DNA from: Sebaldella termitidis ATCC 33386
GTDB taxonomy: Bacteria > Fusobacteriota > Fusobacteriia > Fusobacteriales > Leptotrichiaceae
DNA length: 64,000 bases
Direction of reading: 5' to 3'
NCBI RefSeq assembly: GCF_000024405.1
Contig: NC_013517.1
Location: 372,001-436,000 of the forward strand
This document shows, piece by piece, positions 35,650 through 58,320 of this stretch (position 1 is its first letter; each line of letters starts with the position of its first letter). Under the pieces are notes generated by a model. It saw only the letters and a list, made by a program, of their open reading frames with translations, ran no database searches and was not told the DNA's origin. The position numbers were made by a program, and so were the translations under genes.

Positions 35650-36771
35650 ATGAATTTTGAAAACGGAACAATTCTTGAAATAAAACCTTCAAACAGGAAT
35701 AAAAATATATTTGCAGTATTTTGTGACAGTCAGGTACTATATTTAGCCGATGTTTCAAATGGAAAAACTGTTAAAACCGGGGTTTTTGAAAATATAAAAA
35801 TGTTTTCAAAACCTGTAAATATGGATTTTTATTATCCGTATATATGTATTTCTGAAAAATACGGGTTAAATGCATCGGTAATTAATATAGAAACAGGAAA
35901 AATACAGAAATTTTCAAGAGAAGATTATCATGCTGATGTTTCAGTATATTCAACCGGATTTATTGAAAGAGACGGGAAAATTCTTTTGATACACCAGACT
36001 CAGTGGAACCGTCTTGATATAACAGATCTTGAATCTGGTGAAATTCTGACGAAAAGAGATATAAAAATAGAACTGACACCTGATAAACATAATAAAAAAA
36101 CCGGAGAAATAATAAAGGGCAAGAGAAAATCAGAAAATTATCTTGATTACTTTCACAGTTCTCTTCATATTTCACCAGACGGAAAGAATTTCCTTTCAAA
36201 CGGCTGGGTTTGGTCGCCAGTTGATAATATAAGATGCTTTAATGTGAGGGAATTTTTTTCAAAATATGAATTATGCAGTTTTGGTATAGAATATGCAAAC
36301 GGCTATAATTGGGACAGACCCTGTACTTTTATTGATAATGATACTTTTGTGATAATTGCAGATGATCATACAAAGGAGCTTGATGAGGAAGAGCTTAAAG
36401 AATATGAATACAGACAGCTTCAGTTTTACAGACTGAATGATATAACTGATGATAAATGGCTGAAAAGCTTTAAAACAATAAAAACGGATATTTTTGAATG
36501 CGATCCTGTTTATGGTGAAGTAAACGGCGAGCTTTATTTTGACAAAAAATTAAATAAATTAGTGGCTTTAAATGACAGAGAAGCATATTTAGTAACTTTA
36601 GAGGGAGAAATTACAGAAAAAATCCCGGATATAAAATATGACTCAGCTTCAGATAAAAAAGAGGATATATTCAGAAATGCCAAAAGATGGAAGTACTCAT
36701 CAGAGCATCATTTTTTCTACAGATTTTCAGCGACTGAAAATACAATGAAGATAAAAGAAATTATAATATAA
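35650..36771 (+). CDS. uncharacterised cytoplasmic propeller-like protein
   Basis: Encodes 373 residues from ATG 35650 behind AAAGGAGAAAG. No signal peptide. The sequence has successive hydrophobic strand pairs (NIFAVFCDSQVLYLADVSNG, VSVYSTGFIERDGKILLIHQ, LHISPDGKNFLSNGWVWSP, TFVIIADDH) suggesting a WD-like or TolB-like beta-propeller. The HISPDGKNFLSNG block is the most WD/TolB-like. No enzymatic motif was recognised and neighbours give no clue. It is monocistronic. Confidence 0.65.
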   Translation: MNFENGTILEIKPSNRNKNIFAVFCDSQVLYLADVSNGKTVKTGVFENIKMFSKPVNMDFYYPYICISEKYGLNASVINIETGKIQKFSREDYHADVSVYSTGFIERDGKILLIHQTQWNRLDITDLESGEILTKRDIKIELTPDKHNKKTGEIIKGKRKSENYLDYFHSSLHISPDGKNFLSNGWVWSPVDNIRCFNVREFFSKYELCSFGIEYANGYNWDRPCTFIDNDTFVIIADDHTKELDEEELKEYEYRQLQFYRLNDITDDKWLKSFKTIKTDIFECDPVYGEVNGELYFDKKLNKLVALNDREAYLVTLEGEITEKIPDIKYDSASDKKEDIFRNAKRWKYSSEHHFFYRFSATENTMKIKEIII

Positions 36772-36794
36772 AAAGGAACTCTTTTCAGAGTTCC
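36770..36794 (-). terminator. terminator of the yhf-type operon (minus strand)
   Basis: GGAACTC (36775-36781) pairs with GAGTTCC (36788-36794). Only on the minus strand is it followed by a T tract, so it serves the operon that ends at 36906. A 17-codon frame at 36808 between them is probably not a gene. Confidence 0.65.
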
Positions 36795-36905
36795 TATGAA
36801 GGAGTTTATGAAGAAAAAATTATTTTCTTTTGATAGGTCTAGTATAATGGTCTACACTTAGTATAATCTTTTATTTATCTTTAGTTTTAGTTTGAGTAAA
36901 AATTT

Positions 36906-38114
36906 TTAGAGTTTATTAAGAAAGCTTTTTCCGTTTTGCGGCATTTTTATGTTAAAATATTCCGCAGCAGTGGCACCGATATCAGACAGGGAGTCTCTTA
37001 CTCCTATAAATGTATTCTGCATATCTTTCTTGTAAATCAGCAGGGGAACATTCTCTCTTGTATGTCTTGAGTGTCCTATAGTAGGATCGTTGCCGTGATC
37101 CGCTGTAACTATAAGAATATCGTCATCTGTAATTTTTTCCATGATTTTTTCTATATATTTATCGGAAAGTTCCAGAATCTCTGCATATCTTGCAGTATTT
37201 TCAGCGTGACCTGCAAGATCTGTTTCCTGAATATTCACGCAAATAAATCCTTCATTTATTTTATCTATTTCATCAAGTGTAATATCAAAAATAGTTTTGG
37301 TATCAACCAGTCCCATATAACTTTTACCATGGTCATTTTCCACTATGTCAGCCACTTTTCCAATGAGTATAGCATTTTGCCCGTCTTTTCCCATAATAGT
37401 GGGAACCTGTGTTTCAGGGTCTATTCCGTAACCAAGATGTCTCACCATATAGCCTTTTTCATAAACTCTTGATTTTGGGGCATTTATTCCCATATAAGTT
37501 CCTTCTTTTTCCTCAGCGGCAGCTTTTATACTTTCAATGCTTGAATTTTCCCCGGCAAAAACTATTACTCTTGCCACCTCCACATTTTGACGTACGATTC
37601 TTCCCACTTTCAGTATTTCATCGAAAGTAAGCTCTGAAAGTGTAGAAGTAACATTATAGACCTGTCCGAGATCTGTTTCCAGATTATCGCCGACTGCGAT
37701 ACAGCCGTTTACGAGGAGGTATTTCAGGTTATTACCTACTTTTTCTACTTTATAGCCTTTTTCCAAAAGAGCATTATATACTTTTTCGAGATAAAAACTA
37801 AAAGGCTTCATTAACGGTTTTCTTGGAAGAGTTCCCATGATTTCCTGATGTCCGAAGAAGGTATCTCCGCCGTAGTGCATTAATTTTGCTTTTCCGTAAG
37901 TGCAAAAGCTGCTTTTTTTCATTGCTCCGACTTCTTCTCCAAGTGCATTCATAATTCCCAGTTTTTCCAGATTATCAAGCTGTAGCTTAGGGAATTTTTC
38001 AAGGATATGTCTGCATGTATTAGCTCCGATATCTTCCGGTCTTACCTCAGGAACATCATCCATATATCCCACGCCAAAGCTGTCCAGAACTATTACAATA
38101 AATCTTCTTTTCAT
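36906..38114 (-). CDS. yhfW: YhfW-like phosphopentomutase-family protein
   Basis: Encodes 402 residues. It is an alkaline-phosphatase-superfamily protein related to phosphopentomutase: VIVLDSFGVGYMDD with the metal Asp and the phosphate-accepting Ser/Thr position (11, 12), DTFFGHQEIMGT (cap region), LAGHAENTARY, and TADHGNDPTIGHSRHTREN (metal ligands). Length matches DeoB and YhfW. True DeoB isomerises ribose/deoxyribose 1- and 5-phosphate, but the neighbours (yhfX, yhfS, yhfT, yhfU, php) show that this is the YhfW paralog, whose reaction is not established. It is last in the operon, 3 bp after yhfX. Confidence 0.85.
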   Translation of the reverse strand: MKRRFIVIVLDSFGVGYMDDVPEVRPEDIGANTCRHILEKFPKLQLDNLEKLGIMNALGEEVGAMKKSSFCTYGKAKLMHYGGDTFFGHQEIMGTLPRKPLMKPFSFYLEKVYNALLEKGYKVEKVGNNLKYLLVNGCIAVGDNLETDLGQVYNVTSTLSELTFDEILKVGRIVRQNVEVARVIVFAGENSSIESIKAAAEEKEGTYMGINAPKSRVYEKGYMVRHLGYGIDPETQVPTIMGKDGQNAILIGKVADIVENDHGKSYMGLVDTKTIFDITLDEIDKINEGFICVNIQETDLAGHAENTARYAEILELSDKYIEKIMEKITDDDILIVTADHGNDPTIGHSRHTRENVPLLIYKKDMQNTFIGVRDSLSDIGATAAEYFNIKMPQNGKSFLNKL

Positions 38115-54497: not shown

Positions 54498-55088
54498 TTA
54501 CTGAAAAAACTTTCTGTCCTGAATAACTGTAAGCTGGTCTTCGGAAAGAAGCCCGGCAATTTTATCATTTCTTGCTCTTTTTAGATTATTATATTGATCT
54601 GTAAAATCATCATTTGCGGGATTCTGTTCAATAAGGTCATCTATATTTCTCTGGAATTCATTTTCATATCTGAGAATACCGGCCTTCTGATCATGTGTAA
54701 GATTAAGCGAAGTGATAATATCAGCAATTTTGTTGTTTCTTTCTTCGAATTCAAGTCTTTTTTCATTCATAAAAGCATTATATTTCTTTATCTGGTCATG
54801 TGACAAAACCTTGTAAACATCTTCTTTTCTAGATGTTCTTATAGAATTCAGCGAAGATACTTTTTTAGTATAACTGAATGGCTGGTTCGCCACCTCTTCT
54901 GCTTTTTTCTGATATTTTGCGAATATTTTATTTAGTTCGTTCTGCTGTTTATCAGAAGCATTAACAGCTGTGAAAAGCTCTGTTTTATTTATTTTCAGAG
55001 TATATACTTTTTTATAGTAATCAGAAAGTGAAAATGAAATATTAAATAAAAAAATAACGATTAATATTCGAAATAAAATTTTTCTCAT
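54498..55088 (-). CDS. secreted helical protein, Spy/CpxP-like
   Basis: Encodes 196 residues. Signal peptide 1-20 (IVIFLFNISFS). The mature protein is all-helical and charged, with two blocks similar to the LTxxQ motif of periplasmic Spy/CpxP chaperones (LSHDQIKKYNAFM and LNLTHDQKAGILRYE) plus LSEDQLTVIQDRK at the end. This suggests a periplasmic stress or folding factor; identity is not certain. Own terminator at 54425; the T-box of asnB lies divergently upstream. Confidence 0.65.
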   Translation of the reverse strand: MRKILFRILIVIFLFNISFSLSDYYKKVYTLKINKTELFTAVNASDKQQNELNKIFAKYQKKAEEVANQPFSYTKKVSSLNSIRTSRKEDVYKVLSHDQIKKYNAFMNEKRLEFEERNNKIADIITSLNLTHDQKAGILRYENEFQRNIDDLIEQNPANDDFTDQYNNLKRARNDKIAGLLSEDQLTVIQDRKFFQ

Positions 55089-57711: not shown

Positions 57712-57766
57712 GTTTTTACAGTAAAAACCGGAATATGAAAAAACAAATTGCTTATAAGCTTGAAAG

Positions 57767-57907
57767 TTGAAATAAATAAAATATAATGTATAAAAAAAGA
57801 CAGGTCTAAGAGAAAAGACCTATAATTATATCAAGCTAATAAGAATAATAATTTTTTCATATACCCCCTTAGCTGTCTCAAAATACCGAGTTTGAGACAG
57901 CTTTTTT
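57767..57907 (+). ncRNA. candidate small RNA, copy 1
   Basis: A 102-nt element (57767-57868) matches the one at 58114-58215 at 94 positions. It begins with promoter-like TTGAAA, 16 bp, TATAAA (57789-57794) and ends ATATACCCCC. Directly after it lies an intrinsic terminator, AGCTGTCTCAAA/TTTGAGACAGCT plus T tract (57871-57907). The predicted RNA is ~107 nt (57801-57907) with a 5' hairpin (GGTCT/AGACC), an AU-rich single-stranded middle and an exposed C5 tract, a feature of RNAs that pair with ribosome sites. No reading frame is conserved. Confidence 0.65.
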
Positions 57908-58027
57908 ATTTAATGGAATTTTTAATGAAATAGGCAAAACTTTATTGACTAGCCTGAAAAAATTGTACAATTTGAAAGACATAAATAAAAAGCTGAAAAA
58001 TGTCATATTATAGTGAGGAGAAGGTTA

Positions 58028-58117
58028 ATGGAAAAGAATAAACTTGTTCAAAGGATAAGAGAGGATGCAGAAAATCCGTTCAGAGCAGGGTCGGTTTCTT
58101 ATAAATATAAAAGCTGA
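58028..58117 (+). pseudogene. 29-codon gene fragment cut by the second small-RNA copy
   Basis: ATG 58028 has a good ribosome site (GAGGAGAAGG) and encodes MEKNKLVQRIREDAENPFRA plus nine residues. Its stop codon (58115-58117) lies inside the first bases of repeat copy 2. A real gene probably once continued here and was interrupted or deleted when the repeat arrived. Parent gene not recognised. Confidence 0.45.
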
Positions 58118-58260
58118 AATAAATAAAAGATAAGGTATAAAAAAAGAAAAAGCTAAGAGAAAAGACTTATAATTATATCAAGCTAATAAGAATAATAATT
58201 TTTTCATATACCCCCAAAGCAGGCCGCTTGTTTTAATAGAACGAGCGGCCTGCAAATTTT
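58114..58260 (+). ncRNA. candidate small RNA, copy 2
   Basis: Same 102-nt element as at 57767 (58114-58215; eight substitutions), with CTGAAA, 16 bp, TATAAA (58136-58141) and the same ATATACCCCC end. It is followed by a completely different terminator stem, GCAGGCCGCT/AGCGGCCTGC (58219-58253). The 5' hairpin of copy 1 is only partly kept (one compensatory G-C to A-T change, two mismatches). Conserved body with exchanged terminators argues for selection on the body and C5 tract. Confidence 0.65.
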
Positions 58261-58320
58261 ATTGAAATAAAAATTTATTTTTGTAAAATATTTTTGTTTA
58301 TGATACTGTCGAAGAAATAA

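Follow-up and report, generated by a model that had tools for sequence, protein, structure and literature searches.

A candidate family of sibling small RNAs with leaders antisense to signal-peptide gene starts in Sebaldella termitidis

Enterobacterial small RNAs (sRNAs) of the RybB/MicA type are driven by sigma-E under envelope stress and, in an Hfq-dependent manner, use an unpaired 5′ part to pair near the start codons of exported-protein mRNAs. Their seed is short, their targets are porins, and they carry no complement to a signal-peptide consensus. The csRNAs of streptococci are sibling RNAs with anti-Shine-Dalgarno (anti-SD) and anti-start sequences, including anti-UUG (PMC3091779; PMC8186281), and their CiaR promoters read TTTAAG-N5-TTTAAG-N10-TATAAT (PMC3091779). 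In Fusobacterium nucleatum, which is reported to lack Hfq and ProQ, FoxI and FoxJ repress envelope proteins such as FomA through a C-stretch seed, located in a linear stretch in FoxI; they have sigma-E-dependent promoters and are described as two unrelated sRNAs, not as a multi-copy family (PMC11005410). The subject here is a direct repeat in a 64,000-nucleotide stretch of Sebaldella termitidis ATCC 33386 (contig NC_013517.1, positions 372,001 to 436,000; hereafter the window, numbered from its first letter). The two repeats are quite probably genes of a large family of sibling sRNAs, driven by a regulator and acting as an anti-start brake on exported proteins. A literature search covering few subscription journals turned up no account of such RNAs in either Sebaldella or Leptotrichia, nor of sRNAs antisense to a signal-peptide consensus.

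The repeats (57748-57873 and 58095-58220) are 126 nt long, 88% identical and spaced by 347 bp. An earlier note on this DNA had counted about 94 identical positions in 102, in agreement with the 93% identity that BLAST gives over a 101-nt core. In the BLAST search of the genome, copy 2 is matched at E 1.6e-37, far beyond chance, and further full-length copies lie at 1038024 and 4414544; on the minus strand, the window holds a third copy at 36799-36908. The note considered a promoter-like start common to the copies, but this TTGAAA-16-TATAAT (57760-57787) is not retained: copy 2 has GATAAG in place of the -10, and the copy at 1038024 has AATAGG. The -10 that is kept is an internal TATAAT at 57821-57826, so transcription would start near 57833 (near 58180 in copy 2) and yield RNAs of about 75-83 nt instead of the proposed 107-113 nt. 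Consequently, the 102-nt stretch is not supported as an RNA body: about half of it is promoter and the remainder the 5′ part of the RNA. The elements of the three in-window copies are as follows.

57764 to 57826, plus strand: predicted promoter of copy 1, with phased AAG at 57764-57766, 57797-57799 and 57808-57810 and the -10 TATAAT at 57821-57826
57833 to 57908, plus strand: predicted sRNA of copy 1, about 75 nt, its start set 7 nt downstream of the -10; folds as a single hairpin behind a linear 5′ part (z -5.0)
57833 to 57868, plus strand: putative leader of copy 1 against a translation initiation region (anti-TIR leader), with anti-signal-peptide codons at 57833-57857, anti-start CAT at 57858-57860 and anti-SD CCCCC at 57864-57868
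57871 to 57908, plus strand: intrinsic terminator of copy 1 predicted from the fold, stem 57871-57902
58111 to 58173, plus strand: predicted promoter of copy 2, with AAG at 58111-58113, 58144-58146 and 58155-58157 and the -10 TATAAT at 58168-58173
58180 to 58262, plus strand: predicted sRNA of copy 2, about 80 nt (fold z -6.9)
58180 to 58215, plus strand: putative anti-TIR leader of copy 2, with the same sequence as in copy 1
58219 to 58262, plus strand: predicted intrinsic terminator of copy 2, stem 58219-58253
36763 to 36908, minus strand: third family member, subfamily C, with anti-SD CTCC at 36801-36804, anti-start CAT at 36808-36810, -10 TATACT at 36841-36846 and a terminator stem at about 36774-36795

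In reverse complement, the leader (AAGCTAATAAGAATAATAATTTTTTCATATACCCCC) reads GGGGG TAT ATG AAA AAA TTA TTA TTC TTA TTA GCT T, which corresponds to a Shine-Dalgarno sequence, a start codon and MKKLLFLLA. Partial BLAST matches to the 3′ half of the repeat fall antisense on SD-led starts of signal-peptide genes in 14 of 18 cases. The earlier note had proposed a trans-acting RNA whose active part, an AU-rich stretch and a C5 tract, pairs with ribosome sites; leader complementarity and the target test described below lend this support, and the AU-rich stretch, as the apparent complement of start codon and signal-peptide codons, predicts a target class. The minus strand does read SD-ATG-KKLLFLLA, and it could itself be functional, encoding a short leader peptide (MKKLLFLLA) behind a ribosome site of its own, or be the fossil start of a signal-peptide gene. 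This is very improbable, given that the codon opposite CAT is ACG or ATA (one copy each) or TTG (three copies), that the frames vary from 4 to 36 codons and are broken by indels, and that fixed-spacing promoter elements and post-hairpin T-runs lie on the plus strand. Start codon, frame length and indels being inconsistent with coding, the peptide was rejected, and the note's view that the copies share no coding potential stands.

Target prediction at gene 5′ ends, which the note had suggested, favors the starts of signal-peptide genes and not those of cytoplasmic genes. The 1073 gene starts tested, crudely called in 1.26 Mb of the genome, included 209 signal-peptide genes assigned by a crude rule; scoring used a vectorised alignment score with the 99th percentile of dinucleotide-shuffled RNAs as threshold. 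Copy 1 scores at or above this threshold on 39.7% of the 209 signal-peptide genes, compared with 7.3% of genes with multiple transmembrane segments (multi-TM) and 2.8% of cytoplasmic genes; on the signal-peptide genes, shuffled RNAs reach 1.5% (best shuffle 7.7-9.6%) and the reversed RNA 0%. Signal-peptide genes account for all of its 32 best predicted targets. A smaller test with RNAduplex gave mean energies of -14.6 kcal/mol for signal-peptide starts and -10.8 for cytoplasmic starts; shuffled RNAs averaged -9.7 (the best of them -11.7). The start codon is covered in 197 of the 209 signal-peptide duplexes. Because the effect is lost when the AU part is shuffled and the C-tract kept, specificity appears to be carried by the AU-rich part. 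At the level of sequence, then, the leader is antisense in character and biased towards the signal-peptide class.

The same design recurs in diverged copies. The complement reads GGGGG-TT-ATG-AAG-AAA-AAT-ATT-CTT-TTT-ATT-GGT in subfamily B, AAGGAG-TTT(T)-ATG-AAG-AAA-AA in subfamily C and AAGGAG-TTTT-TTG-AAG-AAA-AAA-GTT-ATT-TTT-CTT-TTA-GC in subfamily D; in genus g3 it is AAGGAG-TT-(A/T)TG-AAG-AAA-AAA-GTT-TTC-ACT-TTT-TCT-ATT-GGT, and in genus g27 GGAGAGAGTT-ATG-AAA-AAG-TTA-CTA-CTT-TTC-ATG. CCCCC is present in most subfamily A and B copies and CTCC in C and D, so that SD complement, spacing and start-codon complement all vary (GGGGG-ATG, AAGGAG-ATG, AAGGAG-TTG) within a design kept across subfamilies. 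In every subfamily, and in the other genera tested, the best register places the start codon on its own complement, and signal-peptide genes outscore shuffles, with a margin of 3.0 to 6.2 standard deviations (4.8 in G031 and 5.8 in G088, each with its own sRNAs). Some members are less class-pure: signal-peptide genes make up 14 of the 25 best targets for subfamily C2, that of the third in-window copy, and 13 and 11 of the best 25 for the sRNAs of G031 and G088, two genomes with small signal-peptide sets (47 and 53). As judged from these alignments, a design rule is conserved while the sequence changes, both between subfamilies and in another genus and another family.

These comparisons also bear on an alternative in which the sRNAs are of the same kind but have one or two true targets each, the broad match being a by-product of pairing with a typical start. 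Subfamilies do differ in sequence, and the best duplexes (-27.7 kcal/mol) are much stronger than the mean; however, about 40% of signal-peptide genes lie above threshold for copy 1 and different subfamilies center on the same register, which leaves this alternative unlikely, though still the one to be taken most seriously. As for the broadest proposal, that a response regulator drives some 20 sibling sRNAs with leaders antisense to the SD-start-signal-peptide consensus, which together throttle a large part of the secretome post-transcriptionally, at the level of the class and not of the gene, in most genera of the family and at least one genus of another family, we regard the chances as evenly balanced.

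Genome-wide search for the repeat body, another check put forward in the earlier note, did find copies beyond the pair, but what had been taken as two copies proved to be a family of about 20. In the genome of 4,486,650 bp (3 contigs), covariance models built from sequence only, first from 18 copies and then from 56, gave 22 matches; with 4195798 (partial) and 717501 (marginal) excluded, 20 full-length copies remain, including a cluster at 85-96 kb. The model E-values are rough, and copies used for model building match by construction. BLAST alone gives many copies in the three congeners, for which the models return 26 matches in G001, 17 in G003 and 10 in G002. Most other genera of the Leptotrichiaceae carry one or a few: genus g3 has one match per genome throughout, several others have one to four, and a related arrangement exists in genus g27, from another family of Fusobacteriales; matches in other genera are independent of the models except for one G012 copy used in the second. 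Several weak matches in other genera are opposite-strand gene starts, that is, target-like sequences rather than sRNAs. A wider contig pattern scan returned Sebaldella and other Fusobacteriales, along with scattered single matches in Paenibacillus, Colwellia, Chloroflexi and others that are likely due to chance. Rfam gave no match in the window at the gathering score, in line with the note's failure to recognize a known RNA family, and at an E-value threshold only sub-threshold matches, the best to an sRNA being CyaR (25.3 bits, 47 needed).

Individual loci add some variety. Seven family sRNA genes lie on one strand within about 11 kb at L190 (1061-12238, minus strand). In G001, L083 (1261-1532) holds a tandem pair of strongly diverged copies separated by about 40 bp, one of which has the complement GGGGTATATGAAAAGTTATTAG and is possibly a retargeted copy. 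The element at 717501-717603 (G000:C1; L291 1002-1104) combines the array, TATAAT, an AU-rich leader with CCC and a terminator without a clear anti-start, and may be a further sRNA of the regulon that serves another purpose.

Copies 1 and 2 are predicted to fold into a linear leader and one hairpin, and a weak hairpin is predicted in the leader of some other members. Directly after the body, a terminator-like hairpin of -7 kcal/mol or below with a T-run follows in 56 of 56 copies, against 14 of 250 random windows. The unlike terminator stems that the note saw after the repeats (57871-57902 and 58219-58253) are indeed there; they have not been exchanged, as it proposed, because relatives of both are found in the three-copy array of the sister species G001 (L080), of terminator 1 after the first copy and of terminator 2 after the third. 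Terminators thus appear free in sequence but are kept with their copy. A terminator after each copy could also indicate cis-acting leaders or attenuators of the next gene, which is scarcely credible: the next gene is convergent after copy 2, the L031 and L032 copies and the in-window minus-strand copy.

Multiple copies, tandem clusters and a likely deletion between the window copies are what an inert or mobile repeat, amplified without function, would also show. The note had expected copies of such a repeat to lack promoters and terminators, yet none of the 56 aligned copies lacks a terminator, and the phased promoter array is present, at invariant spacing, in nearly all of them. Between pairs of copies, identity is 0.67 over the final 22 nt of the body (the anti-start part) but 0.28 over the 22 nt that follow and 0.31 within the promoter spacer, and single conserved copies persist in other genera; an inert repeat can therefore hardly be credited, and the repeats are better read as sRNA genes.

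The deletion itself is suggested by a short open reading frame (ORF) between the copies, of 29 codons with a ribosome site, which ends at the edge of copy 2. This ORF resembles the 5′ end of a C_GCAxxG_C_C protein gene, apparently truncated here; G001 carries the whole gene (L080:3761-4222), also between sRNA copies. The copies were likely the recombination sites of the deletion at the window locus.

58028 to 58117, plus strand: putative remnant ORF between the copies, 5′ end of the C_GCAxxG_C_C gene

The promoter layout is equally regular. When 56 copies are aligned at the -10, TATAAT is nearly invariant and AAG ends at -11 in 50, at -22 in 54 and at -33 in 42 (background 3.2), with further AAG at -44 in 9 and at -55 in 14; the score that located the -10 also rewarded AAG at -11, making that peak, unlike those at -22 and -33, partly a product of construction. 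Letters between the AAG elements are mostly variable, but the 18-copy alignment has no gaps between them and the -10 (one misaligned row end aside), gaps lying mainly 3′ of the -10. A position weight matrix (PWM) gives CTAAG at -15 to -11 (C 0.92) and AAAAG in the next repeat upstream. Arrays of 11-bp direct repeats are bound by activators of the OmpR/PhoB class. The 11-bp phased AAG repeats with TATAAT therefore imply, by analogy, activation by a response regulator of this class.

A strict three-repeat array occurs at five sites in 1.26 Mb, namely three sRNA genes and two small-protein promoters, whereas other spacings occur zero to two times. The two small proteins have sub-threshold LTXXQ/Spy similarity (E 0.027 and 0.054), and at least one has a clear signal peptide. 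A PWM scan adds the promoter of a secreted DM13 protein.

L130 about 15012 (plus strand), L134 5043 and L132 13726 (the latter two reverse-complement positions): candidate array promoters of the two Spy/LTXXQ-like proteins and the DM13 protein

The common array suggests that the sRNAs and the Spy-like and DM13 genes form one envelope-stress regulon. Spy-like proteins are typical products of Cpx-type envelope-stress responses, and with such genes under the same array the activator is likely to be an envelope-stress response regulator. In the window, an LTXXQ-family protein with a signal peptide is encoded at 54498-55088 on the minus strand (PF07813, E 2.6e-6), with no array in the upstream stretch examined. 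The genome has eight OmpR-type regulators. Two candidates were set aside: an autoregulated regulator gene, the best array score (4.7, before L240) being about the background 95th percentile, and a Cpx-like system at L237, which adjoins a small secreted protein with weak Metal_resist similarity and has no promoter evidence. The genera that yielded no copy (g4, g5 and g8) have only one or two OmpR-type regulators and those with copies three or more; that regulator number tracks sRNA presence is suggestive only, as small genomes lose both.

Several points weigh against reading these repeats as stress-induced brakes on exported proteins. Besides the crude signal-peptide rule, signal-peptide starts are of low complexity in an AT-rich genome and can be matched by chance by other AU-rich RNAs. 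Many predicted duplexes are imperfect, and the gap from C-tract to CAT is 3 nt where called SDs mostly lie 4-9 nt from the start, so pairing would often need an mRNA bulge. On the side of the regulon, the Spy-like assignments are below the Pfam cut-offs, and none of the eight OmpR-type genes has a significant array upstream.

What the sequence itself shows is the family, the phasing of its promoters, the terminators and a complementarity specific to one class of genes; transcription and its start site, repression, the regulator and its signal are inferences. In the proposed mechanism, an OmpR/PhoB-class response regulator would bind the AAG repeats, phased at 11 bp, that lie immediately upstream of a -10 with no good -35. 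In each RNA a terminator would follow an unpaired leader some 36-43 nt long, and the leader would pair with the starts of exported-protein mRNAs, C-tract with Shine-Dalgarno, CAU with AUG and AU-rich part with lysine- and leucine-rich signal-peptide codons, blocking ribosome entry. A signal, probably envelope stress, would thereby lower many exported proteins at once as Spy-like periplasmic proteins are raised from the same promoter type. If so, sRNAs can address a functional protein class through the common coding signature of its export signal and not single mRNAs, and induction would reduce many exported proteins jointly without affecting cytoplasmic ones. The 20-fold amplification, with its diverged SD, spacing and start-codon complements, would also constitute a natural mutational scan of anti-start pairing.

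Like RybB/MicA-type sRNAs, these RNAs would present an unpaired 5′ part near the start codons of exported-protein mRNAs, but only the Sebaldella-family leaders complement the signal-peptide consensus. FoxI and FoxJ, compared by description only, share the phylum, a C-stretch seed and envelope-protein mRNAs as targets; they differ as two unrelated sRNAs with sigma-E promoters, in contrast to a family with TATAAT and an AAG array. The closest analogue is the streptococcal CiaR/csRNA system; the present family would work like it without being a member. In both, a pair of repeats ending in AAG is set at 11 bp, with 10 nt between the second repeat and a TATAAT-type -10 (AAG-N8-AAG-N10-TATAAT). Both also have siblings in one genome, intrinsic terminators, response-regulator control (presumed for the Sebaldella family) and unpaired anti-SD and anti-start sequences including anti-UUG, although some Sebaldella-family leaders have a weak predicted hairpin. 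The csRNA repeat NTTAAG-N5-TTTAAG is replaced by CTAAG/AAAAG, often in three or more phased repeats, mostly one hairpin is present, and there are about 20 copies in place of two to six, in genomes of Fusobacteriales and not of Streptococcus. Fusobacteriota would gain a csRNA-like envelope circuit, independently built or inherited, whose apparent novelty lies in its phylum, its copy number and the extension of leader complementarity into signal-peptide codons, aimed at exported proteins.
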